DNA of 64,000 nucleotides from Blastococcus sp. URHD0036 (GTDB lineage Bacteria > Actinomycetota > Actinomycetes > Mycobacteriales > Geodermatophilaceae). The notes under the pieces are model-generated. The model was given only the letters and a program-made list of their open reading frames with translations. It was not told the DNA's origin and searched no databases. The DNA lies in assembly GCF_000701365.1 (NCBI RefSeq), contig NZ_JNIK01000017.1, forward strand, positions 186,001-250,000, read 5' to 3'. This document shows positions 8,764 to 32,822 of the stretch, in pieces. The stretch's first letter is position 1. Every line of letters begins with the position of its first letter. The position numbers and the translations under genes were made by a program.

Positions 8764-9164
8764 GCGCTCACTCCCCGATGCTGACTAACGCCAGCAGAAC
8801 ACGGACAGCGACCAAGGTCACTCACCTCGCTTGGTGAGTCACCAAGATGAGTCACTGTCGGCACCTCGAGAAACAAATACCCGCTGATCACTGCCGATGC
8901 TTGAGGTGCTGCACCAGCGTGGGGTGCACGCGCCTTTCACCATTTACCCCTTTGAAGGGGGCCATCGACCGGCCATCCGTGGACACGGCGCTGTCGTTCC
9001 GCCGGCCGTGACCGCGTCCACTCCCTGTTGCTACTAGGTAGCTCAACTGGGCAGGCTTCTTGTGTCGGTTGGCCTTCAGGTCGGGTCTCTCCTGCTCCGG
9101 CCAACAGCTGCCGAGAACGAGTCGGAACACAACCCGACGTTGCTGCCCCGTTACGTTTCACTCT
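8764..9164. promoter_or_regulatory. Divergent control region with palindromic operator candidate
   Basis: A 401-base gap between divergently read helicase genes, with no convincing gene. At 8831-8845 lies a perfect odd palindrome, TTGGTGAGTCACCAA. It is nested in a larger imperfect inverted repeat (8817-8842) and flanked by a second direct copy of TGAGTCAC (8835-8842 and 8848-8855, 13 bases apart). This looks like a binding site for a dimeric regulator controlling the leftward operon, whose start is only about 70 bases away. The remainder towards 9164 is less GC-rich than the coding sequence around it and should hold the rightward promoter, but I could not fix a -35/-10 pair. Confidence 0.5.
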
Positions 9165-12269: not shown

Positions 12270-12775
12270 ACGCGACGGCGCTGCTGCGACGAGTCCTGAC
12301 GTCAGGGGTTGGACAGATCGGCGTCGACAGAAGGGCTCCCCTCGAGGACGAATTCGCGTACTCGCTGCGTCGCTTGACGGGGAGCCGACTTCTTAGACGC
12401 CGCCTTGCGTGGTCCGCTGTCCCACCGCGGGAGGTGACCCTCGTCGAACTCGAGACCCGTGGGACGAAGGGCTCACTCATCCCGCGGTCCTCATGCTCCA
12501 CGACCCGTGCGCGTACTGGGCGAGCCCCGTCACGACCGTCGTGAACGCGCTACGGCCCATGAGCTCTCGATCTGAGTGACATTCGGCGGCGGCGCGCCGA
12601 AGACGGGGCCTAAGTTGCCCCTCCGGCCCTGGACGCCCACTGCCCTGGATCCGCAGCGCACACCCGCCCCATGCATCCCACGTGCCACGGGGCCCTCTAA
12701 GGGGTTGCGATAGCTGCCTGTAGCCGCGGGGGCACTCTATGGTTCGACGGGGAACCGATACGGGGATGGGTAGTT
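12270..12775. other. Long non-coding leader of the six-gene operon
   Basis: 506 bases between the PLD-helicase stop and the TTG start of the DUF1998-type helicase. No frame in it looks protein-coding: the best are short, Arg/Ser-rich and without a ribosome site. Just before the start codon is a short hairpin, GGTTC (12741-12745) pairing with GAACC (12752-12756), placed to affect access to the start region. The sequence has several G/C-rich tracts and an abrupt change of texture relative to its neighbours. It is the only space where a promoter for the 20-kb operon can lie, yet I found no clear sigma-70 pair. Confidence 0.45.
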
Positions 12776-15700
12776 TTGGACGTCTTCAAGATCCACGAGC
12801 AGGTCATTGCCGACTACCGCGACTTCACGTCCGGATTCGTTCGGGTCCGCGACGAGCGGATCTCCGCTTTCGTGGATGAACAGTTCGCCGAGGGCGTCCA
12901 GTGGCCCGACCCCTGGCTGAGCCTGAATCCCTCCTTCGCGTCCGGGGGCTCCGTGCCTGAGCTCGTCGGCGAAGGGCTCCTGCACCCAGAGTGTGAGCGG
13001 ATCTTCCGCCGCAAGTCCGACATGACAGATGCCGGTCGCGACCCGATCGTGCTGCATCGTCACCAGCGCGAAGCCGTCGAAGTCGCCCGGTCCGGCAAGA
13101 GCTACGTCCTGACGACGGGCACGGGGTCGGGCAAGTCGCTGGCCTACATCATCCCGATCGTTAACGCCGTCCTGCGCGACCGCGACGCCAACGGCGGACG
13201 ACGCCAGCCCGGCGTCAAGGCGATCGTCGTCTACCCGATGAACGCCCTCGCCAACTCCCAGGTCGGCGAGCTGGAGAAGTTCCTGCGGTTCGGCTACCCC
13301 GAGGGCGGCGAGCCGGTCACCTTCGCTCGGTACACGGGCCAGGAGAGCCCGGACGAGCGGCGTCGCATCCTCGCGGAGCCGCCGGACATCCTGCTCACCA
13401 ACTACGTGATGCTGGAGCTGGTCCTCACCCGGCCCGACGAGCGCAAGCACCTCGTCCGGGCGGCGCAGGGCCTTCGTTTCCTGGCGCTCGACGAGCTGCA
13501 TACGTACCGCGGCCGTCAGGGCGCGGACGTCGCCATGCTGATCCGTCGCCTCCGCGACCAGTGCGCAGCTGATGACCTCCAGATCGTCGGAACCAGCGCC
13601 ACCATGGCCAGCGCCGGGACGACGGCCGAGCGCAACGCGATCGTCGCCGACGTCGCGACGCGGCTGTTCGGCTCCGAGGTCACGCCGGAGCGGGTCATCG
13701 GCGAGACCCTCACCCGCGCCACCACCGCCACCGCCCCGACGGCAGAGCGACTCCACGCGGCCGTTGTCGCCTCGCAAGGCTCCGAGCAGACGCGCGACCA
13801 CGCCGACTTCATCGACGACCCACTGGCCGGCTGGATCGAGACGACCTTCGGTCTCGACCACGAGCCAGGCACGGGTCGACTGGTCCGCCGAGCCCCCACC
13901 ACCCTCCCCGAGGCTGCCAGCGCCCTGGCGGCGCTGACCGGACACGCTGAGGAGGCTTGCCGGACGGCGCTGCGGCGAGTCCTGGAAGAGGGATCGCGCG
14001 TTCGACAGCCGGTCATCGACCGGCCGGTCTTCGCCTTCCGGCTCCACCAGTTCCTCTCCAAGGGCGACACCGTCTACGTCTCCCTCGAGCCCGAGGATGC
14101 TCGCCACATCACCGGCTCGTACCAGGTCAGCGTCCCCGGCGAGCCGGAGAAAGCGCTGCTGCCGCTCGGGTTCTGCCGCGAGTGCGGCCAGGAGTACCTG
14201 GTGGTCGCCAAGGTGAAGCAGGGCAACGGCAGCGCCCTGGTCTCCCGCCGGGACGTCGACGCCAGCGGCGGCGACAGCATCACCGGCTACCTGTACGTCT
14301 CGTCCGACCTGCCCTGGCCCAACGATCCCCTCGCGAGCGGTCGGGTGCCCGAGTCGTGGTTGGTCACCGACGCGGACACAGACCGGGTCGAAATCCTCGA
14401 CAGCAAGCGGAAGTACCTTCCCGAGAAGGTCTCCGTGCGGCCCGACGGCTCTCTGGACAACAGCGGTCTCGGCCTCCCCGCGTGGTTCGTGTCCACGCCG
14501 TTCGCCTTCTGCATGCGCTGCGGGGTGTCCTACGAGCAGGTCCGCGGACAGGACTTCGGCAAGCTCGCCACGCTGGATTCCGAGGGGCGATCCAGCGCGG
14601 TCACGCTGCTCAGCGCATCCATCGTCCGGCATCTTCGCTCGGTGCCCCTCGAGGACCTCGATTCGGACGCACGCAAGCTGCTGACATTCGTGGACAACCG
14701 GCAGGACGCCAGTCTCCAGGCCGGCCACTTCAACGACTTCGTTCAGGTCAGCCAACTGCGCGCAGCACTCCATGCTGCCCTGGAGAAAGCTGGGCCCGAG
14801 GGGCTGGCTCACGACACGATCGCCGGCGCGGTCACCGAGGCGCTCGGCCTGCAGACGGTGGACTTCTCCGCCAACCCGCAGGCGAAGTTCAGCGCCAAGG
14901 CCGCCGCCGAACGAGCGCTGCGTGCAGTCGTCGAGTACCAGCTGTACGTCGACCTGCAGCGGGGTTGGCGGGTCACGATGCCGAACCTCGAGCAGACCGG
15001 TCTCCTGCGGGTCGACTACCGCGACCTGAAAGAGCTGGCGGCTGACGACGAGTCCTGGGCCGGCACGTACCTGCTCAACCAGATCTCCGCGGCGCATCGC
15101 GAGGAGCTAGGCCGGATCCTCCTCGACGAGCTGCGGCGCGTCCGCGCCATCGACGTCGACTGCCTCGCGGAGGAGGGGTTCGAGCGGCTGCGGAAGGAGT
15201 CCCGCCAGCAGCTCATCGAGCCGTGGGCCATGTCGGAGGACGAGCGGTTGGTCGAGGTCGGGCACGCCGCTCCCCGCCCGTCCAAGCCCGGCGGGCCGCG
15301 CGGCCGGCTTGCACTGACCGGACGCGGCGCGTTCGGTCGCTACCTCCGGACGGACGCAGCCGGGCTCCCCGGCGTGGTCAAGACCGATGACGCGAGCAAG
15401 GTGATCGTCGACCTGCTCAACGTCCTGACCGAGGCAGGCCTGCTGGCCCGGTCAGACGGTCCGGAAGGGGCAGAGTACAGGCTGCGCGCAGCCGCACTTC
15501 GCTGGCTGGCAGGAGACGGAAAGGAGGGCGCACCCGACCCCCTCCGGCGGAAGTTCAAGGGCGAGGCGACGGCACGGGTCAACCCGTTCTTCCAGGATCT
15601 CTACAAGGACCTGGCTGCTGGCTTCGGCGGCATGCACGCCAGCGAGCACACCGCTCAGGTCCCGCAGCAGATGCGGTTGGACCGGGAGGACTCGTTCCGC

Positions 15701-17998
15701 AAGGGAGACCTGCCCCTCCTGTACTGCTCCCCCACCATGGAACTCGGCGTCGACATCTCCAGCCTGAACGCCGTCGCTCTGCGCAACGTGCCGCCCACCC
15801 CGGCGAACTACGCCCAGCGGTCTGGGCGGGCGGGTCGCAGCGGGCAGCCCGCGCTCGTCCTCACCTACTGCTCCACCGGCAACGCGCACGACAGCTACTG
15901 GTTCCGCCGGTCCCGCGACATGGTGGCCGGCTCGGTCGTGGCGCCGCGATTGGACCTCACCAACGAGGACCTCATCCGCTCGCACGTGCACGCCATCTGG
16001 CTGGCAGAGACCGATCAGTCGATGCACTCGTCCATCACTGATCTGCTCGAGGCGGATGGCGACACACCAACCCTGCGGTTGCTGCCGAACCTGTGGCAGG
16101 CGCTGTCCGACGCCGAAGTCACCCTGCGCGCGGAGCGCACTGCCCAGCGAGTGATGGCTGACCTGCGTCGGACCTGGCAAGCCACCGGCGGGGAGCCCCC
16201 GTGGTGGAGCGACACCTGGGTGCACGACCAGGTGAAGCACGCCGCCCGGTTGCTGGACGAGTCGTTCGACCGCTGGCGTCAGCTCTTCCTCGCCGCCCTG
16301 ACCGAGTACCACGAGCAGCACAAGCTCGCGATCAACGTGAGATCGAGCCGGCGGGACCGGCAGCAGGCCGAGCGCCGTCGGGCGGATGCGCGCAACCAGC
16401 TCATCCTGCTGCGTAACGAGGACCGGGAAGTCGGCGCCACCGACTTCTATTCGTACCGCTATCTGGCCAGCGAAGGCTTCCTGCCCGGCTACTCGTTCCC
16501 CCGGCTGCCGCTGGCCGCCTACATCCCGGCACGGCGTGGGGTGAAGGTCGACGGCGACTTCATCCAGCGCCCTCGTTTCCTGGCTATTAGCGAGTTCGGG
16601 CCCGGCGCGCTCATCTACCACGAAGGGGCTCGGTACGAGGTCACTCGCATCCAGCTCCCCCGCGACCCGGGCGAGACCAACAGCAGTGGGGCGGTCACCG
16701 AGACCGCCAAGCGGTGCGAACACTGCGGCTACCACCACCCGGTCGTCGTCGGCACCGACACGTGCGAGCACTGCGGCGCCCAGCTAGGCGTCTCCCAGTA
16801 CGGCCTGCTGCGTCTGCAGACCGTGTTCACCCGGCGGCGCGAGCGCATCAGCAGCGACGAGGAGGAACGCCGCCGGTCCGGGTTCGATCTGGAGGTCTCC
16901 TTCCGCTTCCCCGACCGCGGTGGACGTCCCGGCTACACCAACGCCGAGGCCGTCGTTGAAGGCCAGCCCGTGCTCGAGCTCGTGCACGCCGACGCTGCCG
17001 TGATGCGCATCGCGAGCGTCGGTCGCCGTCGCCGGAAGAACCCGAGCGATCGCGGCTTCTGGCTCGATCTGCGGGAGGGCCGATGGCTCTCGGAGACCAA
17101 GGCAGCAGACAAGACGGTCGACACCGAGAGCCTCGACGCGGCAGAGGACGTCGCTGCGAAGGAGAAAGTCACGCCCTACGTCGAGGACCGGCGCAACGTC
17201 CTGGTCATCCGGCTGTCCGAACCTGCCTCGGAGACCGTCACCGTGACCCTGCGCGCCGCCCTCGAGCGTGCCGCCGAGGCCACGTTCCAGCTGGAGGACT
17301 CGGAGTTGGACAGCGTTGAGCTCCCTGATGCTGCAGAACGCGGACGGATGCTGCTCAACGAGTCCGCCGAAGGTGGCGCCGGCGTGTTGAGCCGCCTGCT
17401 CGAAGAACCACGAAAGCTGGCGGACGTCGCACGTAAGGCGCTCGAGCTCATCCACTACGACCCCGACAGCGGAGCCGATCTCGGTCAGGCGCCGGGCGCG
17501 CGGGAGCGGTGTGAGAAGGGCTGTTATGACTGCCTGCTCTCTTACGGCAACCAGTACGACCACAGTTCCATTGACCGGCACGAGATCGTCCCGCTGCTGC
17601 GCGAGTTGCTGAGGGCCGAGGTCACAACCGGCGCTGGGGAGCGCGACCGAGCCGAGCAACAGGATTGGCTCAACGCTCTGTCGGACTCCGGCCTGGAGCG
17701 CCGGTTCGTCGATTGGCTGCAGGAGAACGGCCACCGCCTGCCGGACGACGCCCAGCAAACGGTCAGCGCCGCCAATGCCCGGCCCGACCTCGTCTACAAC
17801 CTGCACGGCAACCCGGTCGCCGTGTTCGTCGATGGTCCTCACCACGACGACGCGGTGCAGCGACTGCGCGATGCGCAGGCGGCTGAGCGGCTCGAGGACC
17901 TCGGCTGGTCAGTGGTCCGCGTGCATCACAGCGAGGACTGGGCGGCACTCGTCGGCCGCCACTCATGGATCTTCGGACCTGGAAGGACTGCACGTTGA
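12776..17998 (+). CDS. DUF1998-type helicase with C-terminal Vsr/DUF559-like nuclease fold (DrmA/B- or DruE-like)
   Basis: A protein of 1740 residues from TTG 12776. Superfamily 2 motifs are TTGTGSGKS (113-121), YPMNALANSQ (153-162), DELH (239-242), GTSATMA (near 273) and, far downstream, SPTMELGVDI and QRSGRAGRSG (about 980-1021). The long gap between the ATPase lobes holds two Cys pairs (CRECG near 467, CMRCG near 580). A further four-Cys ribbon (CEHCG..CEHCG) lies near 1314, and the MrfA/DUF1998 zinc signature CEKGCYDCLLSYGNQYDH near 1580. Residues 1640-1740 look like a Vsr/DUF559-type endonuclease: LERRF, RPDLVY (D1671), VFVDGPHH (D1686, H1689, H1690), then an RD..AERLEDLGWSVVRV tail. DISARM splits this between DrmA (helicase) and DrmB (DUF1998); Druantia DruE joins helicase and DUF1998. 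It is the first gene of a six-gene operon; its stop overlaps the next start (TTGA). Confidence 0.85.
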   Translation: MDVFKIHEQVIADYRDFTSGFVRVRDERISAFVDEQFAEGVQWPDPWLSLNPSFASGGSVPELVGEGLLHPECERIFRRKSDMTDAGRDPIVLHRHQREAVEVARSGKSYVLTTGTGSGKSLAYIIPIVNAVLRDRDANGGRRQPGVKAIVVYPMNALANSQVGELEKFLRFGYPEGGEPVTFARYTGQESPDERRRILAEPPDILLTNYVMLELVLTRPDERKHLVRAAQGLRFLALDELHTYRGRQGADVAMLIRRLRDQCAADDLQIVGTSATMASAGTTAERNAIVADVATRLFGSEVTPERVIGETLTRATTATAPTAERLHAAVVASQGSEQTRDHADFIDDPLAGWIETTFGLDHEPGTGRLVRRAPTTLPEAASALAALTGHAEEACRTALRRVLEEGSRVRQPVIDRPVFAFRLHQFLSKGDTVYVSLEPEDARHITGSYQVSVPGEPEKALLPLGFCRECGQEYLVVAKVKQGNGSALVSRRDVDASGGDSITGYLYVSSDLPWPNDPLASGRVPESWLVTDADTDRVEILDSKRKYLPEKVSVRPDGSLDNSGLGLPAWFVSTPFAFCMRCGVSYEQVRGQDFGKLATLDSEGRSSAVTLLSASIVRHLRSVPLEDLDSDARKLLTFVDNRQDASLQAGHFNDFVQVSQLRAALHAALEKAGPEGLAHDTIAGAVTEALGLQTVDFSANPQAKFSAKAAAERALRAVVEYQLYVDLQRGWRVTMPNLEQTGLLRVDYRDLKELAADDESWAGTYLLNQISAAHREELGRILLDELRRVRAIDVDCLAEEGFERLRKESRQQLIEPWAMSEDERLVEVGHAAPRPSKPGGPRGRLALTGRGAFGRYLRTDAAGLPGVVKTDDASKVIVDLLNVLTEAGLLARSDGPEGAEYRLRAAALRWLAGDGKEGAPDPLRRKFKGEATARVNPFFQDLYKDLAAGFGGMHASEHTAQVPQQMRLDREDSFRKGDLPLLYCSPTMELGVDISSLNAVALRNVPPTPANYAQRSGRAGRSGQPALVLTYCSTGNAHDSYWFRRSRDMVAGSVVAPRLDLTNEDLIRSHVHAIWLAETDQSMHSSITDLLEADGDTPTLRLLPNLWQALSDAEVTLRAERTAQRVMADLRRTWQATGGEPPWWSDTWVHDQVKHAARLLDESFDRWRQLFLAALTEYHEQHKLAINVRSSRRDRQQAERRRADARNQLILLRNEDREVGATDFYSYRYLASEGFLPGYSFPRLPLAAYIPARRGVKVDGDFIQRPRFLAISEFGPGALIYHEGARYEVTRIQLPRDPGETNSSGAVTETAKRCEHCGYHHPVVVGTDTCEHCGAQLGVSQYGLLRLQTVFTRRRERISSDEEERRRSGFDLEVSFRFPDRGGRPGYTNAEAVVEGQPVLELVHADAAVMRIASVGRRRRKNPSDRGFWLDLREGRWLSETKAADKTVDTESLDAAEDVAAKEKVTPYVEDRRNVLVIRLSEPASETVTVTLRAALERAAEATFQLEDSELDSVELPDAAERGRMLLNESAEGGAGVLSRLLEEPRKLADVARKALELIHYDPDSGADLGQAPGARERCEKGCYDCLLSYGNQYDHSSIDRHEIVPLLRELLRAEVTTGAGERDRAEQQDWLNALSDSGLERRFVDWLQENGHRLPDDAQQTVSAANARPDLVYNLHGNPVAVFVDGPHHDDAVQRLRDAQAAERLEDLGWSVVRVHHSEDWAALVGRHSWIFGPGRTAR

Positions 17999-20865
17999 GC
18001 ATCACCGAGAAAACCGCCGATTTCGCCGTCGGGGGGCTCGTTCGCGCCCGCGGACGTGAGTGGGTGGTGCTCCCCGACACGACCCCCGACTTCCTGCTCC
18101 TCCAGCCACTCGGCGGTGGGCCGGACGACGTCGTCGGCGTGTTCCCCGACGAAGGGGTGGAGCCGGCGACCTTCCCCGTCCCCGCAGCCGACGACCTGGG
18201 CGACGCCGCCTCTACCGAGCTGCTCCGCACGGCGCTGCGAGTCGGCTTCCAGTCCTCAGCCGGGCCCTTCCGATCGTTGGCCGGGATCAGCGTCAGTCCG
18301 CGGAATTACCAGTACGTGCCCTTGATGATGGCTCTGCGTCAGGACACGGTCCGGCTGGTAATTGCCGACGACGTGGGCATCGGGAAGACCATCGAGGCCG
18401 GCCTGATCGCCGCCGAGCTTCTCGCCCAGGGCACCGTCAAGCGCATGGCGGTGCTGTGCTCGCCGGCCTTGGCAGAGCAGTGGCAGCGCGAACTGCGGGA
18501 AAAGTTCGGAATCGATGCCGCCTTGGTCCTGACCAGCACGGTCAAGACCCTGGAACGCGGGCTCATGCTCAACGAGTCGCTGTTCGACCGCTATCCGCAC
18601 GTCATCGTCTCGACCGACTTCATCAAGTCCGACCGGCGCCGTCACGAGTTCGTGCTCCGGTGCCCTGAGTTGGTGATCGTGGACGAGGCGCACAACTCCG
18701 TCGCGGGCAGCGCCGCCGGCCAGCAGTCCCGCCACCAGCGGTACGAGCTGCTCAAGTCGCTGGCCGCCGACGAGAGCCGCCACCTCATCCTCACCACCGC
18801 GACGCCGCACTCCGGCGACGAGACCGCGTTCGCCAACCTGGTCGGCCTCTGCCACCCGGACCTGGCCGCGGTTGACCTCGGCAGCGCGGCCGGGCGGACG
18901 ATGCTGGCCCGCCACTTCGTGCAGCGTCGGCGTGCCGACATCCGCCACTACCTGGACGAGGACACACCCTTTCCCCGAGACAGGGAGACGAGGGACGTCC
19001 CTTACACGCTGAGCCCCGCATACAAGGACCTCTTCGAGGACGTTCTGGCCTACGCGCGCGAGCAGGTCCGCGACAGCGTCTCGGGTGCGCGTAGCCGCGT
19101 CCGGTGGTGGTCGGCGCTGGCGCTCCTGCGTGCCATGGCATCAAGCCCGCGCGCGGCCGTCGCCACGCTGGGCACGCGCGCATCGAACGCGGATGTCACG
19201 AACGCGGCGGAGGTCGATGCCCTCGGGCGCGCGGGCGTGCTCGACAGCGCGGACGACGAGACGCTGGAAGGGCTGGACATGACACCCGGCGCGCTCGTGC
19301 ACCAGCCGGAGGAGCTCGAGGCCACGAGCGGTGAAGCGGAGCGCCGGCGTTTGTCCGCCTTCGCGCGTAGAGCCGCGGAGCTCGAGGGCACCGACCAGGA
19401 TCGCAAACTGGCCCTGGTCATCGGCCAGGTCAAGCAGCTGCTCGCCGACGGCTTCGCGCCGATCGTCTTCTGCCGGTTCATCCACACCGCCGAGTACATC
19501 GGCGAGCACCTCGCCACCGCCCTGAGCGGCAAGCGCGGCGCCGACGTCAACGTCGGCGTCGTCACCGGCCTGCTGCCGCCCGCGGAGCGGGCGCGCCGAG
19601 TGCAAGAACTGGTTGACCGGCCGGGCCGACACGTCCTGGTGGCGACCGACTGCCTCTCCGAGGGCGTCAACCTGCAGGAGGCCTTCTCCGCCGTCCTCCA
19701 CTACGACCTCGCCTGGAATCCGACTCGCCACGAGCAGCGCGAAGGCCGCGTCGACCGCTTCGGCCAGCGCAAGGACGTCGTTCGCGCGCTGACGCTCTAC
19801 GGCGAGGACAACGGCATCGACGAGATCGTCCTCGAGGTGCTCATCCGCAAGCACCGCGCGATCGCCAAGGCCACCGGTGTCGCCGTTCCCGTGCCCGGCA
19901 ACGGCGACGGTCTGATCGATGCGCTGGCCGAGGGACTGCTCCTGCGCAACCGCCACGCCGAGCAGCTGACGATCGACCTCGACTTGGATCAGCGCACCAT
20001 CGACTTCGACGCCGCCTGGCAGTCCGCCGCCGAGAAGGAGAAGGCGTCCCGCACCCGGTTCGCGCAACACACGATCAAGCCGGACGAGGTCGTCACGGAG
20101 GTCACCGAGATCCGTGAGGCACTGGGCGCCCACGGGGACCTCGAGCAGTTCCTGGTCCACACCTTGCGGGCCCTTGGCTCCACGGTTACTCAGGTCGACG
20201 ACGGCTTCACTGCGGTCCTCGGCACTCTGCCACTCGGGCTGCGGCACAGCCTGCCCGTCGGGGTGCATGACCCCCTGCTGTTCCGCGCCGAGCCGCCCGC
20301 TGGTCGCGGGGAGGCGGTGATCGCCCGTACCGACCCCACGGTGCAAGCCATCGGTCGTTACGTCTTGGAGAGCGCGCTCGACCGCGCGGTGCCCGAGCGC
20401 GACCGCCCGGCCCGGCGAGCCGGCGTCATGCGCAGCAATGCGGTGCAGACCCGCACGACCTTGCTGCTCGTTCGCTTCCGCTTCCAGCTCGCGCTGCCGA
20501 CCCCGGACGGCGTGCATTCGCAGGTCGCCGAGGACGCCCGCGTCCTCGCTTTCGAAGGGGCGCCAGGAAACGCGGTATGGCTCACCGACGAGCGAGCCGA
20601 GGTGCTCCTCAGCGCAAACCCGTCCGGCAACGTCCCCGCCGATGCCGCGCGACTCGCCGCGGAGCGAGTGCTCGATGGGCTGCCCGAATTGACCCCGTAC
20701 CTGGAGCAGGTCGCCGACGAGCACGCCGACCGGCTGCTCGGCGCCCACCGCCGGGCCCGCCTCGGAGCCGGCGCCGTGCGCCGCGGGCTGTCGGTGACCG
20801 CCCAACGCCCCGTCGACGTCCTGAGCCTGCAGGTGCTCCTGCCGGCTGTTGGGAGCAACGCGTGA
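17995..20865 (+). CDS. DrmD-like SNF2 ATPase
   Basis: A protein of 956 residues if started at TTG 17995, which overlaps the upstream stop as TTGA and gives an N-terminus MSITEKTADFAVGGLVRARG; an upstream ATG (17965) lies inside the previous gene. The stretch VGGLVRARGREWVVLP is the small beta-rich leader usual in the SNF2 proteins of DISARM-type loci. SNF2 motifs: DDVGIGKTIEAG (Walker A, 125-132), LCSPALAEQW, LVIVDEAHNSV (231-234), LTTATPHSGDE, FCRFIHTAEY, VATDCLSEGVNLQE and EQREGRVDRFGQ. The C-terminal third is helical and unassigned. Such ATPases probably move along duplex DNA to test or present it to nucleases. It ends in a GTGA overlap with the first methylase. Confidence 0.85.
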   Translation: MSITEKTADFAVGGLVRARGREWVVLPDTTPDFLLLQPLGGGPDDVVGVFPDEGVEPATFPVPAADDLGDAASTELLRTALRVGFQSSAGPFRSLAGISVSPRNYQYVPLMMALRQDTVRLVIADDVGIGKTIEAGLIAAELLAQGTVKRMAVLCSPALAEQWQRELREKFGIDAALVLTSTVKTLERGLMLNESLFDRYPHVIVSTDFIKSDRRRHEFVLRCPELVIVDEAHNSVAGSAAGQQSRHQRYELLKSLAADESRHLILTTATPHSGDETAFANLVGLCHPDLAAVDLGSAAGRTMLARHFVQRRRADIRHYLDEDTPFPRDRETRDVPYTLSPAYKDLFEDVLAYAREQVRDSVSGARSRVRWWSALALLRAMASSPRAAVATLGTRASNADVTNAAEVDALGRAGVLDSADDETLEGLDMTPGALVHQPEELEATSGEAERRRLSAFARRAAELEGTDQDRKLALVIGQVKQLLADGFAPIVFCRFIHTAEYIGEHLATALSGKRGADVNVGVVTGLLPPAERARRVQELVDRPGRHVLVATDCLSEGVNLQEAFSAVLHYDLAWNPTRHEQREGRVDRFGQRKDVVRALTLYGEDNGIDEIVLEVLIRKHRAIAKATGVAVPVPGNGDGLIDALAEGLLLRNRHAEQLTIDLDLDQRTIDFDAAWQSAAEKEKASRTRFAQHTIKPDEVVTEVTEIREALGAHGDLEQFLVHTLRALGSTVTQVDDGFTAVLGTLPLGLRHSLPVGVHDPLLFRAEPPAGRGEAVIARTDPTVQAIGRYVLESALDRAVPERDRPARRAGVMRSNAVQTRTTLLLVRFRFQLALPTPDGVHSQVAEDARVLAFEGAPGNAVWLTDERAEVLLSANPSGNVPADAARLAAERVLDGLPELTPYLEQVADEHADRLLGAHRRARLGAGAVRRGLSVTAQRPVDVLSLQVLLPAVGSNA

Positions 20866-24839: not shown

Positions 24840-27800
24840 CCGGTTCATTCATCTCCGTCCGTGTGGGCGGAGGTCTGCTTCCGTCGGATGTGTTGTCGGC
24901 GGTGTTGGCCGGGAGCCTGGATGGGCTGCGCTCCACCGACTATCACCTGGCTGGGGAGAACCCGCGGGAGGCCTCGGCCCGGGTGTGGACGCACTTGCTG
25001 GGTGTGTACCGCCGGTTCCGCGATGACCTAGCTCGGCTACCCGAGGGGGATCCGGCGGTCGGGTTGACGCGCGAGCGGTGGCTGACGGTCGTGCTGAGCG
25101 AGCTGGGCTATGGCCGAGTGCCGGGGACCGGCACCGGCGGGTTGACGGCCGGAGACAAGCAGTACCCGGTCAGCCACCTGTGGGGGGCCACCCCAGTCCA
25201 CCTGCTGGGCTGGGGTGTGCCGCTGGACAAGCGCACGCCGGGTGTGCCGGGAGCAGCGCAGCGGGCTCCGCACGCAATGGTGCAGGAGCTGCTCAACCGG
25301 ACCGATGATTACCTGTGGGCACTCGTGTCCAACGGAAGAGTTCTCCGCCTGTTGCGGGACTCGACCACCCTGACGGGGCAGGCCTTCGTCGAGTTCGATC
25401 TGGAGGCGATGTTCGACGGCGAGCTGTTCGCCGAGTTCGCCCTGCTCTACCTGCTGGCCCACCAGTCCCGGGTCGAGGTCCCGGCCGACGGGGTGTTGTC
25501 GGACTGCTGGCTGGAGCGCTGGCGCGCCACCGCAATCAGCCAGGGCGTGCGCGCCCTGAATCTGCTGCGCGACGGGGTGCAGGACGCCCTAGAGACGCTG
25601 GGCACCGGCTTCCTGCAGCACCCGGCCAATGTTCGGCTCCGCGAGGACCTCGCCAACGGAGCCATTCGGCTTGAGGACCTGCACGCCGCGCTGCTGCGCA
25701 CCGTGTACCGGCTACTGTTCTGGGCCGTCGCCGAGGACCGCGACGCCCTCCAAGGCCCGGACGTCCCCCGCGACGTACGCGACCGCTACGCGCAGCACTT
25801 CTCCTCCGGGCGGCTGCGTCGGCTGGCCGTCCGGCGGCAGGGCAGCGCCCACGACGATCTGTGGCAGGCCGTCGACCTGGTGGTGACCGCGCTCGGTCGA
25901 CAGGGCGGCGAGCCCCGCCTCGGCCTGCCCGGCCTCGGCGGGCTGTTCACGACCACCCACGCCGACGTGCTGGCCGGCGCCCGACTGGGCAACCAGCCCC
26001 TGCTCGCGGTGATCCGCTCGCTGTCAGTGGTTCAGCCCAAGGGCCAGCCGCGCCGGCTGGTCGACTTCCGCCACCTCGGCGCCGAGGAACTCGGCTCGAT
26101 CTATGAGTCCCTGCTCGAGCTGGTCCCACGGCACGACCCCACCCGGCAGGTCTTCACCCTCGAGACCCTCACGGGCAACGACCGCAAGACCACCGGCAGC
26201 TACTACACCCCCAGCGACCTGGTCGACCTTGTTCTCGACACGGCCCTGGACCCGGTTCTTGACGACGCGGAAAAGCAGCCCGACCGCGAGCAGGCGTTGC
26301 TCGCCGTCACCGTGTGCGACCCGGCGATCGGCAGCGGCCACTTCATGGTCGCCGCAGCACGGCGCATCGCCAACCGGCTGGCCATGGTCCGCACCGAAGA
26401 GGTCGACCCCAGCCCCGCCGACCTTCAGCAGGCCATGCACGACGTCGTCGCCCGGTGCATCTACGGCGTCGACCTCAACCCCATGGCCGCCGATCTCGCC
26501 AAAGTCAGCCTGTGGCTGGAAGCCATGACCCCCGGGCAACCGCTGTCCTTCCTCGACCACCACATCAAGGTCGGCAACGCCCTCCTCGGCACCACCCCCG
26601 CCCTGCTTCACGCCGGCATCCCCGACACCGCCTACACAGCCCTCGGCGACGACGACAAGAAGACCGTCACCGCCTGGAAGAACCACAACAAGAAGCTCCG
26701 CGACGGGCAACTACAACTGCTCCCCGAAGCGGGCATCCCGGTCGGCAATGAAGGACTACGGATCGCCGCCCAGGAGATCTCCGAGCGTGCCACGACCGGG
26801 CACACCCTCGCCGACATCGCCTGGGCCGCTCAGCGCTACACAACCGCCCAGGCATCCGACGCCGCCGTCCGAGCCCGACGCACCGCCGACGCCTGGTGCG
26901 CAGCCTTCCTCAGCCGGAAGACCGCCGAAGATCAGCCGATCACCCACGCCACCCTAGAAGCGCTGAGCGGAGGCACCGCGCCAGCGCACCTCCTCGACTC
27001 GGTGGACGCTCTGGCAGTTCAGTACCGGCTTTTCCACTGGCATCTGGAGTTTCCTGAGATCTTCCGCGTGCCCGGCGACGAGCCCGCTAACACGACTGCC
27101 GGTTGGACCGGCGGATTCTCAGCCGTCTTGGGCAACCCACCGTGGGAACGCATCAAGCTCCAAGAACAAGAGTTCTTCGCTTCCCGAGAGGTCACCATCG
27201 CCGCCGCGAAGAATGCGGCCGCCCGCAAGAAAGCCATCGCCGCTCTGGCTCAGTCGCACCCCGAGCTGCTGAACGAGTTTAGCGATGCCAAGCGGCAGGC
27301 TGAAGCCGCCAGCCACTTCCTTCGAACTTCAGGTCGCTTTCCCCTCTGCGGGGTTGGGGACGTAAACACGTACAGCGTCTTCGCTGAACATTTCCGCTCC
27401 ACCATCGCACCGACCGGCCGTTCGGGAATCATTACCCCAACCGGGCTTGCGACCGACGCAAGCACCGCTGCGTTCTTCGCCGACACGCTAAAGTCGGCCC
27501 GCCTGGCCGCATTCTATGACTTTGAGAACAACGCTCCACTCTTCGAAGGAGTGCACCGGAGCTTTCGATTTGCTGCATCATCCATGACCGGCGGGGAGCC
27601 CGTCGCCGAGGTGCGGCTAGCTTTCTCGCAGAAGTATCCCGCTGACGTGCCAACGTCGACCTTCACTCTCGAGGCCGAAGAGATCCTCCTCCTGAACCCC
27701 AACTCGGGGACCCTGCCGGTTTTCAGGACTCGTCGCGACGCCGAGATTGCCCTTGCATGCCACCGTAGGCACCCCGTCCTGCTGCGCGACGCCAGCCCAC

Positions 27801-28798
27801 ATGGCAACCCCTGGAATCTTCGCTTTGGAACGCTGTTTCATATGGCCAACGACTCGGGCAAATTCATATCAGCCCAAGAGCTGGAGCAGGGGGGTGCCGT
27901 CTACGACGGGTGGGCGTGGCTCGATGGATACGATCGCTGGCTCCCGCTCTACGAAGCAAAGATGCTCAGTCACTGGAATCACCGATTTGCGACGTACGAC
28001 GGCGTTGCACCAGGAAGCACGTCGCTGCCTACCCTCACTGATGACGAGCTAGATGAACCCCGACTCGAACCGCTCGCACGCTACTGGGTCGCGGCCACCG
28101 AAGTAAGAGACGCCCAACCGGCAAACTGGGATCGTGACTGGTTCCTCGGTTGGAGAAATATCACGAATGCCGGCAACGAGCGAACCTTCGTTCCATCCAT
28201 CCTGCCGCGCTCCGCAGTGAATCACGCATTCCATATTGCGACGCTAGCCCACCCCGAGGCCGCACCGAACCTACAAGCGGTTTGGTCATCTTTCGTGTTC
28301 GATTACTTGAGCCGGCAAAAGCTGAGCGGGTCGAATATGACTTACATGGTTACAAAGCAGCTTGCCTGCCCGGTGCCAGCCGAATTCGACAGGTTTCCAA
28401 CCTGGACAGATCGGACTCTCGGCGACTTCGTGCACCCTCGAGTTCTTGAACTAAACTACACTTCCCACCTGCTTCACCCGTACGCGGAGGATATTGCGGA
28501 AGAGGATCAGCCCGCTCCGTTCCGGTGGGTTCCAGGCCGTAGGGCACAGATTCAGGCCGAGCTCGATGCGGCACTCCTGCATGTCTACGAGCTTGAGCGT
28601 GTCGACGTGGAGCATGTCTTGGACTCATTCTTAGTCTTGCGCAAGTACGAATTGCGTGATCACGGCGAATTCCGAACCAAGCGCCTCGTTCTCGCGGCGT
28701 ACGACGCCATGATGGAGGCGGCACGCACGGGGGTGCCATTCGTCAGCCCACTCGACCCGCCCCCCGGGCATGGCCCACGCCACAAGGAGCAAATGTGA
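24836..28798 (+). CDS. Eco57I-type N6-adenine DNA methyltransferase, copy 2
   Basis: A protein of 1320 residues, a tandem paralogue of the preceding gene. DPAIGSGHF is again at residue 495 and NPPW at 767, so no net insertion or deletion separates the copies up to the catalytic motif, and the two are near-identical there. After residue about 780 they diverge strongly, keeping islands such as [50 protein letters not shown] and VPFVSPLDP. Different recognition domains on a shared catalytic half suggest that the two enzymes methylate different sites or different strands of an asymmetric site. The recognition part is A/T-richer (about 27,180-28,650). The gene overlaps its neighbours by four bases at both ends (ATGA, GTGA). 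Confidence 0.88.
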
Positions 28799-31473
28799 CA
28801 GCGGAAGCTCTTGAGCCGCCGGTGCTTTTCGAGTCTGGACAACCGGTTCAGGACTCCGGATGGGTGCTGCGCTGCCGCACGCGGCTGCGCGCCGCGCTGG
28901 AGGTCTTGGCTGAGCAGGACCAGCCGCTGAAGTACACCGAGCTTCAGGACCTAACTGCGCAACGGGTGCCGCTCAACGCCTACGACGCGTCCGTGACCAA
29001 GAGCGGGTCGGTACGTGCGTGGACCAACCTCGGGTGGAACCTGACCACCACCTACGAACACGCTGGCTGGTTGCACGCCACGTCGGATGGCGGCTTCCGT
29101 CTGACCCGTGAAGGCCGCGCGGCGCTTACGAGGTACCGGGACCCCCTGGAGCTGTTTGACGTAGCCGGCAAGGCATACGACGACTGGGATGCGGCGCGCA
29201 GCGAGGCCCTGCCCGAATTGCAGCTCTCCGCCGCCGCTGACGTCCTCCACGGGGGTTCGGGGACCGCGCACGCGCTGCGAGCCGTGGAGCCGGTGCTCGA
29301 GGCATGGCGGACCGGTGCGTCAGCCTTCCTAGCCGACGTGTCCGTCTGGAATCCGGCCACCACGACGGGACTGTTGGAGTACCTCGAGTCGGCGCCACAG
29401 CCCACGCCGGCCACCCTCCCCGGATTGGACGGGCTTGCGCCCCGGACGTTGGCTGCGGAAGCCCTCGTTCTGCTGGTCGGACCGCTCAGCGACATGATCG
29501 GCAGCACCAAGCGAAGCCGGGTCCGCAATCCGCTCATCCCCGTCGAGGATCCGCCCGGCCTGCCCATCCAGCTGTCCGCCGACCTTGAACACGGGTTCGT
29601 CCACGGCGGGAAGGCCTTGATCGCCAGTCCCGTGGCGATGCTGACTTCGTGCGTTCGCATCTTGGCCCACTGGTGGCAACAGCCCCAGGAGTCCCGTGAC
29701 GCGGCGTGGTCCGATCCCTGGGCCTTCCGCGATCTCGTCAACGGCGTACCAGCCGCCGACGATCGGGTCGCCTCGCTGCTGTGTCTGCTCACGCATCCCG
29801 GATCGTTCACCACTCTGCTGCGCCGGGCCGACCGCGAAAAGGTCGTCGACGTCTTCGGCACTCGCCTTGACGCCCCTAGTGGTGACCTCGAGCATGACCT
29901 GAAGACCATCACGCTGGAGCTTCAGGCGGAGCAGGGCGGCAAGCCCGTCCGATTCGACACCGCGCCCCTGCTCCAGCAGTGGAGCCAGGACGTGGAGGGA
30001 GGCCGAGCCTGGCTCGTCCGGGGCGAACTCGACCAGCAGAACCGGGTACCGGCCTGGGTCAGCCAGGGGCGGGTGACCCTCACCGTCGGACGGTTGACCA
30101 ACCTGCCGGCAACCCTCACCCAGGACGCGGTGAGCACCCTGGTCGACCAGCGGTACTCCGACTGGCAGGTGGTTAAGCGCGAGGCCAAGAAGCGCGACGT
30201 CTTGGCCTTCGTGCTGGGGATGCAGCCTGGTGACCTGGTGGCGACCGTTGACGGGGAGCAACTCCGCCTGGGACGCCTGGAGGACAGTCCTGCGGCCTTG
30301 CAAGAAATTGGCGGCTCGATGCTTCTCACGCGCCCGGTCGCGTGGAGCGCCGACTCGACCCCGTCCGTCAAGGGCCTGCCCGGATCTGTCCGCACTCGAA
30401 TGCGATTCAAGGGCGAAGACGTCCTCGACCTCACCGAGATCAACGCCGCCCTTGAAGCGTTGGCCGAAGTGGATGAAGCGCTGACGGGCGAAGTCGACCT
30501 CGAGGACACGGACCTCCCAGTCGATCCCGAGGTCGTGGTACCCGAGAACCAGCCGCCTGCGCCGGCCGTACTCGAGTGCGACATCGACGCGCTGGCGAAG
30601 TCCCTGCACCACGCCGATGGCAGTTGGCTGACGGAGATGCTGATCAGCCTCAACGAGCGCAAGCAGGTCGTGCTCGAAGGCCCCCCAGGTACCGGAAAGA
30701 CGTTCTTGGTCCAGCGTCTGCTGGAGGCATGCGGTGTCGTCGAGGGCCAGTCCGCACTGGTGCAGTTCCACCCCACCTACTCTTATGAGGACTTCGTCGA
30801 GGGGTTCCGCCCGGTGGCCACTACCGACGGCTCCGGAGCAGCTCTAACCGTGCAGCCTGGGCCGCTCAAGCGGATCGCCGACGAGGCCAGCAAGGCGCCG
30901 AACAAGCCATTCGTCCTGGTGATCGACGAGATCAACCGGGCGAACATCGCGAAGGTGTTCGGGGAGCTCTACTTCCTCCTCGAGTACCGCCAGCAGGAGA
31001 TCGAGCTGCTGTACAGCGCCGGGGAACGCTTCAGCCTCCCGGACAACCTGTTCATCATCGGCACGATGAACACGGCGGACCGCTCCATCGCGCTGCTGGA
31101 CGCCGCGATGCGGCGGCGGTTCGTCTTCCTGTCGATGGACACGTCCGAGCCGGCACTTAGCGGAGTGCTCCGACGCTGGTGCGAGGCCAAGGAGCAGCCG
31201 ACGGTCGTCGCCGATCTCCTGGACCGCCTTAACAAGCGGATGGTGGAGCGGGGACTCGACCCGTCCCTGGCCTTCGGACCGTCGTACTTCATGCGACCCA
31301 ACGCCGGGGACCCCGCGGCGCTCGACCGCCTCTGGCGACGAGAGCTCCTGCCGATGCTGAAGGAGCATCACTACGACGCCCAGGATCAGCTGGGGAGCTG
31401 GTATCCGTTCGCAAAGTGGATAACCGAGCTGGGCCTCGCCGCCGCGCCACAGCCTGAGGGCGCCGAGGGTTGA
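28795..31473 (+). CDS. McrB-like AAA+ GTPase with winged-helix N-terminus
   Basis: A protein of 892 residues from GTG 28795, with AAGGAG about eight bases upstream and a GTGA overlap with methylase 2. Residues about 25-112 read like an Mrr-N-type winged helix (LEVLAEQDQPLKYTEL through LTREGRAALTRY). The C-terminal AAA+ module is McrB-like: Walker A GPPGTGKT (629-636), Walker B VLVIDEINRANIAKVFGEL (D711, E712), and IIGTMNTADRSIALLD followed by AAMRRRF. In McrBC the GTPase forms hexamers that read modified or foreign DNA through the N-terminal domain, translocate, and activate McrC. The 500-residue central region here is unlike the short DUF3578-type reader of Escherichia coli McrB, so the recognised feature is unknown. 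It ends in a TTGA overlap with the McrC-like gene. Confidence 0.85.
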   Translation: MTAEALEPPVLFESGQPVQDSGWVLRCRTRLRAALEVLAEQDQPLKYTELQDLTAQRVPLNAYDASVTKSGSVRAWTNLGWNLTTTYEHAGWLHATSDGGFRLTREGRAALTRYRDPLELFDVAGKAYDDWDAARSEALPELQLSAAADVLHGGSGTAHALRAVEPVLEAWRTGASAFLADVSVWNPATTTGLLEYLESAPQPTPATLPGLDGLAPRTLAAEALVLLVGPLSDMIGSTKRSRVRNPLIPVEDPPGLPIQLSADLEHGFVHGGKALIASPVAMLTSCVRILAHWWQQPQESRDAAWSDPWAFRDLVNGVPAADDRVASLLCLLTHPGSFTTLLRRADREKVVDVFGTRLDAPSGDLEHDLKTITLELQAEQGGKPVRFDTAPLLQQWSQDVEGGRAWLVRGELDQQNRVPAWVSQGRVTLTVGRLTNLPATLTQDAVSTLVDQRYSDWQVVKREAKKRDVLAFVLGMQPGDLVATVDGEQLRLGRLEDSPAALQEIGGSMLLTRPVAWSADSTPSVKGLPGSVRTRMRFKGEDVLDLTEINAALEALAEVDEALTGEVDLEDTDLPVDPEVVVPENQPPAPAVLECDIDALAKSLHHADGSWLTEMLISLNERKQVVLEGPPGTGKTFLVQRLLEACGVVEGQSALVQFHPTYSYEDFVEGFRPVATTDGSGAALTVQPGPLKRIADEASKAPNKPFVLVIDEINRANIAKVFGELYFLLEYRQQEIELLYSAGERFSLPDNLFIIGTMNTADRSIALLDAAMRRRFVFLSMDTSEPALSGVLRRWCEAKEQPTVVADLLDRLNKRMVERGLDPSLAFGPSYFMRPNAGDPAALDRLWRRELLPMLKEHHYDAQDQLGSWYPFAKWITELGLAAAPQPEGAEG

Positions 31474-32684
31474 GCCGGGGAGCGCTGCAGCACCTGTCCG
31501 AGGGCCAGGTGCTCGCCGGAGTCGACCTCACCCGAGCCGAGGCGGTGGCACTGAGCGGCACGAAGCTCGTCACCGCAACGCCCGAGGGAGACGGGTGGAA
31601 GGTCGCGGCCGGCCAGTGGGTCGGGGCGGTTCGCTGCGGTGACCTCGAGGTGCGGGTGACGCCCAAGGTTGGCGCCGTCAAGGTCCTTCAACTCCTGGCC
31701 AGGGCTCAGGGCGTCCGGAATCTGCACGTCGACGTGGAACGGCTGGGCCTCGCTGACGAAGCTGATCTGAGCACGGTGCTCGCGGTTCTCTTTGAGCAAG
31801 AGGCGCAGACGGCGTTGGCGCAACGGCCGCAGCGGGGCTACCGGACTGAGGACCAGTCACTGCCCGTCGTTCGGGGGCGAATTCGCCTCGTCGACCAGGC
31901 GCTTCGCCGATTCGGCGTCGTGACGCCGATCGAGGTGACCGTCGATGAGTGGACGCTCGACACGGACGAGAACCGGCGCCTGCGTGCCGCGACGCGGGTC
32001 CTGCTCAGCCTGCCAGGAGTTCCCAAAGCGGCGCTCGGCGGCCTCCGCCGAGTCGACCGCATGCTGGCGGAGGTCACGCTCCTCCCTCGAGGAGCCCGCC
32101 TGCCGCCGTGGACGCCCACGAGACTCAACAGGCACCTTCACCGCCTGCTCCATCTGGCGGATCTAGCGCTCGGCGGCGGGAGTGTCGAACACCGCGCCGG
32201 GGACGTCGTTGCCCATGGCTTCGCGCTCAACATGGCTTGGGTCTTCGAGGCGCTCGTCGCGCAGATCCTCGAAGAGGAGTGCCTCCGCGTCGGATCCGGC
32301 CGCCTTATGGTGCAGCGGACCTACCAACTGGATGAAGACGACCGCATCACGATCAAGCCGGATCTGGTCGTTTCTGCCGGTTCCGACGTTCTGGCTGTCG
32401 CGGACACCAAGTACAAGCTGCTCGAGGACGACGGTGGCTTTCCGAACGCCGACGTCTACCAGCTGATCACCTACTGCCTTCGGCTCGGTCAGCGAGATGG
32501 TCACCTTATCTACGCGGGCGAGACATTGCCCCAGCCCGACGTCTACGCCATTCGCAATGCAGATGTCTCGCTGCACGTCCACGCCATCGACCTCACTCAG
32601 GACTTGACCGGCATTGAGCAGCAGGTATCGAGACTTCACCAGCTGATCTCCGAGCTTTCTACGTGCCGTGCGGCGACCGCCTAA
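31470..32684 (+). CDS. McrC-like PD-(D/E)xK nuclease subunit
   Basis: A protein of 404 residues from TTG 31470 (TTGA overlap). The N-terminal half has the McrC pattern LEVRVTPKVGAVKVLQLLA. The C-terminal part holds the nuclease signature IKPDLVV with D298 and VADTKYKL with D312 and K314, after a conserved VEHRAGDVVAHGFALNMAWV helix block. It should be the cutting subunit recruited by the adjacent McrB-like motor. It closes the run of six overlapping genes. A start slightly downstream cannot be excluded, because TTG starts are weak, but the first residues LQHLSEGQVLAGVDLT fit the family. Confidence 0.85.
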   Translation: MSRGALQHLSEGQVLAGVDLTRAEAVALSGTKLVTATPEGDGWKVAAGQWVGAVRCGDLEVRVTPKVGAVKVLQLLARAQGVRNLHVDVERLGLADEADLSTVLAVLFEQEAQTALAQRPQRGYRTEDQSLPVVRGRIRLVDQALRRFGVVTPIEVTVDEWTLDTDENRRLRAATRVLLSLPGVPKAALGGLRRVDRMLAEVTLLPRGARLPPWTPTRLNRHLHRLLHLADLALGGGSVEHRAGDVVAHGFALNMAWVFEALVAQILEEECLRVGSGRLMVQRTYQLDEDDRITIKPDLVVSAGSDVLAVADTKYKLLEDDGGFPNADVYQLITYCLRLGQRDGHLIYAGETLPQPDVYAIRNADVSLHVHAIDLTQDLTGIEQQVSRLHQLISELSTCRAATA

Positions 32685-32822
32685 GTCCAGCCCCGGAGGC
32701 ACCACCCCACCGCGCTCGGGGTAGCGCAGAACCACATCGCTCAAGTCCCCAGGCTCGTAAGCCGATCGTGCTCATAGACGCCGGACTCGAGCAATTCCGG
32801 CCGAGTTGGCAAGGGGACTCGA

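Follow-up and report, generated by a model that had tools for sequence, protein, structure and literature searches.

The window, a 64,000-nt stretch of Blastococcus sp. URHD0036 (contig NZ_JNIK01000017.1, positions 186,001 to 250,000), contains at 12776-32684 six + strand open reading frames, all without internal stops, that encode in order a YprA/DruE-like helicase, a SNF2 ATPase, two PglX-like predicted m6A methylases, McrB, and McrC (Table 1). An earlier note made from the sequence described these genes as joined by five 4-base overlaps, and the junctions read as it claimed (TTGA, GTGA, ATGA, GTGA, and TTGA). Being co-directional as well, the six genes look like one operon, and the domain labels given to them are borne out by Pfam, with each gene showing the expected families. 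The program's ORF list starts gene 2 earlier, with an ATG (17965); a 4-base overlap results from a start at the TTG of 17995, and the annotation of Nocardioides sp. JS614 also has a 4-base overlap at its YprA-SNF2 junction. A promoter scan found none (shuffle mean of 0.8), and seven terminator-like sites were seen versus a shuffle mean of 8.1; both results are uninformative. The two genes 3' of McrC gave no match with PHROGs, Pfam, or PADLOC.

Table 1. Features of the six-gene operon (window coordinates).
Feature	Position	Strand	Remarks
YprA-family SF2 helicase (DruE-like), 1740 aa (gene 1)	12776..17998	+	C-terminal MZB/DUF1998 zinc domain, Vsr/MTES_1575-like tail
Vsr-like nuclease tail of gene 1	17723..17935	+	residues about 1650-1720, motif VFVDGPHHD at 1683
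SNF2/RapA (BrxHII/DrmD-like) ATPase (gene 2)	17995..20865	+	SNF2/Helicase_C (Pfam); motifs GKT, DEAH
Methylase A: PglX/MmeI-like predicted N6-adenine DNA methyltransferase (gene 3)	20862..24839	+	Eco57I, N6_Mtase (Pfam)
Variable target-recognition-like region, methylase A	23562..24581	+	residues 901-1240; 54% identity to methylase B there
Methylase B: paralogue of methylase A (gene 4)	24836..28798	+	Eco57I/N6_Mtase; same motifs as A
Variable target-recognition-like region, methylase B	27536..28546	+	aligns with residues 901-1240 of A
McrB-like GTPase (gene 5)	28795..31473	+	Mrr_N winged helix, residues 32-112; reader-like domain, about 400-556; AAA+ motor
McrB: conserved reader-like domain with a possible YTH/EVE fold	29992..30462	+	alignment, Foldseek, PDC-S02
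McrC nuclease (gene 6)	31470..32684	+	PF10117 McrBC, 203 bits; KPDL at 296, DTKY at 312

In gene 1, DEAD, Helicase_C, and MZB (=DUF1998) all exceed their Pfam cut-offs within a single protein. Its top PADLOC models are DruE1 to DruE4 (up to 321 bits), YprA (6znp) is among its PDB sequence matches, and it has CxxC pairs at 467 and 579, between its two helicase domains. The nuclease tail that had been assigned to it can be retained only tentatively: with the tail alone, the match to MTES_1575 reaches an E of 3.9e-6, but its 27.3 bits lie under the cut-off of 38.2. Among seven YprA tails that were tested, DUF559 exceeded its cut-off in two (L035 and L038), and Pfam gave no match at all in another two (L009 and L021). 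In a YprA tree, the window protein clusters with 45 further YprA proteins, all encoded at SNF2-linked loci, and lies apart from ArmC II, DruE III, and L138. However, those three sit on very long branches, and the tree took 49 of the 100 available sequences, without the published reference protein of ARMADA Type I (discussed below); consequently, the placement of gene 1 relative to ArmC and DruE is insecure. Gene 2 matches PADLOC model PDLC02853 (named DpdE) with 1043 bits across nearly its full length and DrmD with 256 bits. BrxH, DrmD, and RapA models all match it, but every NCBIfam match is under its equivalog cut-off (282 bits for DISARM_DrmD, with a cut-off of 610).

Both methylases are matched by the DrmMI and PglX models of PADLOC. 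Methylase A has the motifs DPAIGSG at 495 and NPPW at 767, and a model of its residues 440-1325 (mean pLDDT of 91) finds PglX (8c45) as its fold match at an E of 1e-13, followed by CamA, M.BseCI, and MmeI. Furthermore, methylases A and B are paralogues, 79% identical overall, a pairing absent from the earlier note. Their identity is 90% over residues 1-780 versus 54% over 901-1240. By block, it is 92% over residues 1-440, 87% over 441-780, 73% over 781-900, 61% over 901-1060, 48% over 1061-1240, and 77% over 1241-1322. The divergence is thus concentrated in residues 1061-1240, the expected recognition region, and the sequences suggest that A and B have different motifs.

The methylase alignment covered the window's two methylases and 45 of the 55 usable relatives. 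The closest relative of methylase B is the one methylase of Geodermatophilus telluris (L002), with 66% identity in the variable region, and in its recognition region A resembles genes from other lineages at least as closely as it resembles B. Over the shared half, the distance between A and B is about that of either from the G. telluris gene; as A and B are no more identical to each other there than to this gene, the idea that the two copies simply arose by a recent tandem duplication within this genome was rejected. Of the 99 loci whose methylase match is longer than 3 kb (the length taken as "full", a few being truncated by contig ends), one has tandem methylases, the window itself; some genome scans scored no more than the top two candidates of each genome and could have missed tandem copies. 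Extra methylases are found in three other genomes (G597, G995, and G1136), with 50-61% identity to the methylase of their own operon, but these lie 1-13 kb off the operon (in G597, near a contig end) and are not tandem, and they were rejected as the same phenomenon. In two relatives (L080 and L006), orphan C-terminal methylase pieces carrying the recognition region are present. Literature searches of article texts did not find a second, tandem methylase in such operons, and it is the unusual part of the operon described here.

The last two genes have the features of an McrBC pair: an McrB with an AAA+ motor and the NxxD signature (NTAD at 759) and an McrC with PF10117 (DUF2357) and PD-(D/E)xK motifs. 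In McrB, AAA_5 and Mrr_N exceed their Pfam cut-offs, and the sequence matches PDB McrB chains ("5-methylcytosine-specific restriction enzyme B") at an E of 6e-41. When the N-termini of the window McrB and 17 of the 22 listed relatives, all ARMADA-linked, were aligned, 10 of the 12 invariant columns fell within a reader-like domain common to all 18. One PDC-S02 model matches 15 of these 18 members, at 405-523 in the window protein. In a Foldseek search with the McrB N-terminal model (poor overall, with a pLDDT of 67, but 77-91 per block over residues 401-530), YTH domains of YTHDF2 make up seven of the top 50 matches, the first among them, with probabilities of 0.95-1.00 and E values of 0.013-0.2, and no match in this search has an E of 0.001 or better. 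The output does not give the aligned residues, and the placing of the YTHDF2-like match on the reader-like domain is our inference. Pfam searches with the reader domain alone (four proteins, E up to 10) returned no YTH or EVE family, the window's domain giving PDZ_6 at an E of 0.076, and a profile of the 18 N-termini found seven PDB sequences at an E of 0.15 or worse, none of them named YTH or EVE. The fold search is suggestive, no more, of a YTH-like domain in the linked McrBs, which would be an m6A-reader fold; if so, m6A writers and a methyl-reading nuclease may stand together in this operon. In D. radiodurans, according to the available text, three attempts at deleting mcrBC (MP1 plasmid) left it in place, and an earlier mcrB insertion gave no rise in transformation; that text contains nothing on the ARMADA part of this organism.

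Relatives of the operon were collected as 119 loci; the order counts omit L165, which has no SNF2 in its stretch. A set of 80 loci, the best of 101 obtained from exact peptide patterns, leans to close relatives, and one genome supplies two overlapping loci (L159 and L160). With the window counted, as it is in both the order and the tandem counts, 94 of the 102 loci with room for it have YprA on the strand of SNF2 and no more than 1 kb upstream of it; of the 113 loci having a downstream methylase match, 100 have it within 200 b. Since the YprA-SNF2-methylase order recurs over several phyla, the arrangement is not due to chance; the genes co-occur often, contrary to the rare co-occurrence that would have refuted the earlier note. 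On plasmid pNOCA01 of Nocardioides sp. JS614, the same gene set is present with one methylase. Within the family, the methylase match is sporadic (6 of 112 genomes, including Blastococcus sp. URHD0036).

Given all of these findings, the operon is probably an ARMADA Type I defence system accompanied, as is often the case in actinobacteria, by McrBC and carrying a second, tandem methylase. In this model, which draws on BREX PglX and on ARMADA Type II, the PglX-like methylases would place N6-methyladenine at their own motifs in host DNA. They would also serve as specificity subunits, aiding the YprA helicase-nuclease and the SNF2 ATPase in acting on unmarked DNA, which would serve phage defence. 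Methylases A and B, with the same body and different recognition regions, would provide two target motifs for one shared set of effectors. McrBC would be a second, modification-dependent arm, cutting DNA with bases that are read by the McrB N-terminal domains. In BREX, PglX sets the defence target, and two methylases differing mainly in the recognition region raise directly the question of whether the methylase does so here.

There is close to an even chance, however, that ARMADA Type I (genes 1-4) and a type IV McrBC (genes 5-6) are two independent systems with only their transcription in common. With the window excluded, McrB is absent downstream in the examined stretch from 22 of the 58 assessable Actinomycetota loci and from 17 of the 18 others, and so McrBC may be a separate, travelling system; in addition, in 18 loci the McrB motor starts 2.5-6.6 kb past the methylase, several with intervening ORFs. 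Yet a co-directional downstream McrB is kept in 36 of the 58 Actinomycetota loci (and in 1 of the 18 others), one conserved domain is common to all of the aligned linked McrB N-termini, and a 4-base overlap joins McrB to methylase B in the window and to the methylase in JS614. As for the second methylase, it is quite conceivable, at rather less than even chance, that it is a passing allele, duplicated or horizontally gained, that has no selected function and is heading for loss. Its presence in a single locus, the similar shared-half distances among A, B, and the G. telluris gene, and the orphan pieces of L080 and L006, which resemble possible remnants of such loss, would all be consistent with this. 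Nevertheless, A and B are full length with the motifs present and 4-base overlaps on both sides, and the combination of bodies that are 92-87% identical with a recognition region of A no closer to B than to other lineages is the pattern expected if specificity was selected. An extension of the preferred model, in which two m6A motifs, exchangeable specificity modules (the copies, and cassettes like those of L080 and L006), and a YTH-fold McrB reader form a write-and-read circuit, appears unlikely. If it were true, a single operon would write m6A and carry a nuclease that reads it. Such reading of methylated adenine would make it a puzzle why the nuclease spares its own host, and own and foreign marks would have to be told apart by the winged-helix domain or by the sequence context.

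The kinship with DISARM, Druantia, and McrBC that had been proposed for the operon holds. Druantia combines DruE with one of three partner sets: DruH, DruM/F/G, or DruA-D. That the operon is a Druantia system is very improbable: although gene 1 has its best PADLOC matches to DruE models, none of these partners, DruH, DruM, DruF, and DruG included, is among the matches listed for genes 2-6 (the best 25 for three of them), and membership was rejected on this lack of a partner gene. Furthermore, local matches of gene 1 to the ArmC protein from a Type II-like operon of E. coli (122 and 120 bits) are slightly better than those to DruE III (101 and 100 bits), and its neighbours are SNF2 and PglX-like genes in the style of ARMADA. 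A Class 1 DISARM system is scarcely credible, even though the SNF2 and methylase proteins match DrmD and DrmMI models. Neither a separate DrmA or DrmB nor a DrmC is among the matches listed for the six genes, a single protein contains both helicase and DUF1998, and the NCBIfam DrmD score of gene 2 is below its cut-off; the fused helicase and the missing DrmC led to rejection of membership. In JS614, moreover, annotated drmA and drmB adjoin the ARMADA genes as a separate gene set. The window methylases share with BREX PglX/BrxX the methylase fold and a recognition region that follows the methylase core, but their partners are others, and BREX was rejected, as it had been before, because no PglZ, BrxC, or BrxL model is among the full NCBIfam matches of the six proteins.

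The view that the locus fits no named defence system no longer holds, since its core is that of ARMADA, described and named in 2025 (Bell et al. 2025, preprint, PMC12458937). According to the available text of that preprint, Type I has YprA, then a BrxHII/RapA-like helicase, then a PglX-like methylase; its YprA has a BrxA-like domain after RecA1, a zinc-binding beta-barrel at the start of RecA2, and a C-terminal, predicted-active Vsr-type nuclease. Type I is the more widely distributed ARMADA type, and it is Type II for which functional tests are reported there. The window's operon agrees with Type I in its order of YprA, SNF2, and PglX-like methylase, in having no ArmD helicase, which belongs to Type II, and perhaps in its Vsr-like tail, but it has two tandem methylases where Type I has one. 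Within the available text, the preprint makes no mention of two methylases, and its main text has no word beginning with "duplicat".

A published system with the same gene order thus exists for the core, with McrBC as a reported associate. The introduction of the preprint mentions a YprA cassette associated with McrBC, and a 2024 McrB census (Bell et al., PMC11090510) places McrB beside a DISARM-like system, with a figure legend that names YprA, DUF1998, SWI2/SNF2, and PglX, the same neighbours that McrB has in the window. That census announces the DISARM-like cassette with McrBC as the subject of a later paper, and its available text gives no detail on the reader domain of the cassette or its number of methylases. 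As far as these two sources go, the Type I core and its McrBC link are known already (PMC12458937, PMC11090510), and what is new here is the second tandem methylase, which was not found in print. An ARMADA Type II-like operon on E. coli plasmid pYLPD7b (L179) encodes homologous YprA, SNF2, and methylase proteins, with 24-36% identity to those of the window over local stretches, but its order is SNF2-methylase-YprA followed by a fourth helicase gene, with no McrBC in the examined stretch. Finally, the McrB of Thermococcus gammatolerans has a YTH reader of 6mA DNA (PMC7680126, available text). The window McrB resembles it in its motor and perhaps, at a weak level, in the fold of an N-terminal domain, but differs in having an Mrr_N winged helix as well and in lying in an operon with predicted m6A methylases.

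The six genes of the operon (see the table) overlap by 4 bases at each of their five junctions (TTGA, GTGA, ATGA, GTGA and TTGA, in order), and each of the six proteins has the catalytic motifs searched for in it. The earlier note had described these genes correctly, from their number and the five overlaps to the domain identities. Its further claim, that they fit no named defence system, is outdated: by gene content and order the operon matches ARMADA Type I, which a recent preprint describes as beginning with YprA, a helicase whose tail is of the Vsr type, and continuing with a BrxHII/RapA-like helicase and a PglX-like methylase (Bell et al. 2025, PMC12458937). The weakly scoring Vsr-like tail and the helicase's tree placement are less clear signs of membership: in a tree built from 49 of 100 available sequences it clusters with 45 YprA proteins of other SNF2-linked loci and away from Type II ArmC, DruE III and L138, but the last three sit on very long branches. 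The preprint also states that a DISARM-like cassette containing YprA is often associated with canonical McrBC, an association already found in a 2024 McrBC census (PMC11090510).

Features of the window (upper rows) and of related loci (last four rows)
Feature	Position	Strand	Remarks
UvrD helicase with PD-(D/E)xK nuclease domain	70-2571	+	reading frame extends beyond the window's start
DUF6308 gene	2568-3290	+	follows the UvrD/nuclease gene
HelD/HelR-like UvrD helicase	3389-5407	-	overlapping pair with the next gene (3389-8763)
DrmD/RapA-like SNF2 ATPase	5404-8763	-	
Type IV methyl-directed restriction enzyme	9060-12269	+	PLD, ResIII helicase, DUF3427; PADLOC mREase_IV PDLC03659, 961 bits
Six-gene operon	12776-32684	+	gapless, co-directional
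Gene 1, YprA/DruE-like helicase		+	1740 aa; MZB (DUF1998); Vsr-like C-terminal tail scores weakly
Gene 2, SNF2/RapA ATPase		+	
Genes 3 and 4, methylases A and B		+	Eco57I/PglX kind; predicted product N6-methyladenine
Gene 5, McrB		+	motor plus Mrr_N winged helix
Gene 6, McrC		+	
GP88-family gene	34706-35548	-	PF17338; phrog_1392, 276 bits
C-terminal methylase piece, Kribbia dieselivorans (L080)	18218-19258		separate; downstream of main methylase, directly before McrB
C-terminal methylase piece, Pimelobacter MAG (L006)	11766-12542		separate; downstream of main methylase
ARMADA Type I-McrBC set, pNOCA01 (L176)	5685-31982		
ARMADA Type I-like set with McrBC, pMP1 (L177)	15004-33588		

The core of the operon is widely conserved. 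A scan with gene 2 of contigs from 84,980 species yielded 101 relatives, and gene order was counted in the best 80 of these 101, in 39 further stretches from genome searches and in the window. In 94 of the 102 loci with room for it, YprA precedes SNF2 on the same strand by no more than 1 kb, and a methylase starts at most 200 b downstream in 100 of the 113 with a methylase match (window counted in both). Among loci with at least 5 kb after a methylase match longer than 3 kb, the window excluded, McrB is found downstream on the same strand in 36/58 from Actinomycetota versus 1/18 others. Nocardioides sp. JS614 has the same gene set with a single methylase and overlaps of 4, 4, 4 and 14 bases; on its plasmid pNOCA01, the set adjoins separate annotated drmA/drmB. 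In Deinococcus radiodurans the methylase of the pMP1 set is broken into three pieces, among which an IS630-like transposase gene is annotated, and McrB and McrC are annotated as genes in a table that carries no pseudogene flags. Three attempts to delete mcrBC of D. radiodurans MP1 have been reported, none of them successful (PMC10085245).

Tandem methylases occur in the window alone among the 99 loci with a methylase match longer than 3 kb. Four genome searches gave any methylase match in 6/112 (the family Geodermatophilaceae), 23/396, 32/397 and 30/394 genomes, the window's own being counted in each and two candidates per genome being scored in the last three; nowhere but in the window did two full-length matches stand next to each other. 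The two other listed Blastococcus genomes had no related methylase. Such a pair, a variant of Type I, was not found in the main-text passages of the literature searched. In three genomes (G597, G995 and G1136; loci L159/L160 and L181-L184) a further ARMADA-like methylase lies 1-13 kb from an ARMADA operon and shares 50-61% identity with that operon's own copy.

The paralogues A and B are 79% identical overall, but unevenly so: in methylase A numbering, identity is 92.5% (1-440), 87.4% (441-780), 73.3% (781-900), 61.2% (901-1060), 48.3% (1061-1240) and 76.8% (1241-1322). Over residues 901-1240, B is nearest to the single methylase of Geodermatophilus telluris (66%) and A to a gene from another Geodermatophilaceae locus, L001 (58%). 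In the shared half, A and B are no more alike than either is to G. telluris; therefore, a fresh duplication is ruled out, and the sequences suggest either that the pair predates the G. telluris split or that one copy arrived by transfer.

Most of this divergence falls in the region expected to recognise the target. For residues 440-1325 of methylase A, a model built from 47 aligned sequences (mean pLDDT 91) has as its best PDB matches PglX/BrxX, CamA, M.BseCI and MmeI, all adenine methylases. In Salmonella PglX, residues 662-849, after the methylase core, are reported to align with target-recognition domains; PglX sets specificity in methylation as well as in defence, and pglX genes are described as commonly subject to phase variation (PMC11341690). 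The separate pieces in L080 and L006 cover methylase positions about 1030-1310, and both matches start near the same conserved LPLYEAKM motif; the main L006 methylase is itself split over two frames. They could be modules kept in reserve, or what is left of a second copy that was lost.

Although McrB N-termini differ in length, the 18 aligned have one domain in common, at about residues 400-556 of the operon's McrB, and 10 of the 12 invariant columns fall within it; one PADLOC model, PDC-S02, matches 15 of the 18. The McrB model is poor overall (pLDDT 67), although blocks within residues 401-530 reach 77-91. In a Foldseek search with it, YTHDF2 YTH domains took the first place and six more of the best 50 (probability 0.95-1.00, E 0.013-0.2), and the part matched is presumably the conserved domain, the output giving no aligned residues. 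Because no match reached E 0.001, the model is poor, and sequence searches with the domain and N-termini gave no YTH or EVE match, a YTH/EVE fold is only suggested. If true, it matters, since the YTH fold of an archaeal McrB targets 6mA DNA (PMC7680126; PMC7641849), whereas the methylases of this operon are predicted to produce m6A. Sensing of 6mA is also within the reach of winged-helix domains, and fusions of a winged helix to an NTPase, paired with McrC, have been noted as candidates only (PMC11037411); the Mrr_N domain here might be another.

G+C is 63-72% over about 2 to 36 kb of the window versus 70-75% in the next 28 kb, which fits an acquired island. The phage-related GP88-family gene sits near the right edge of this stretch. 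Directly upstream of the operon lies the Type IV restriction enzyme, and the SNF2 and HelD/HelR-like genes on the opposite strand are possibly another defence pair.

By analogy with BREX PglX and ARMADA Type II, the methylases would mark host sites, and they may also serve as specificity subunits. The attack on unmarked DNA would fall to SNF2 and the YprA helicase-nuclease, paired methylases would broaden the range of sites, and McrBC would attack DNA whose bases McrB reads. Because 22 of the 58 assessable Actinomycetota loci have no McrB downstream within the stretch covered, McrBC may cooperate with the ARMADA part or may merely travel with it. In L138, a locus from the window's family, the order is SNF2-methylase-YprA, and the 2.7 kb covered after YprA holds no long ORF for a fourth helicase; it is a Type I-like set in Type II-like order. 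ARMADA Type II itself, exemplified by E. coli plasmids, contrasts with the window's operon in gene order, and its protection is reported to be abolished by removing any one of its four genes (PMC12458937).
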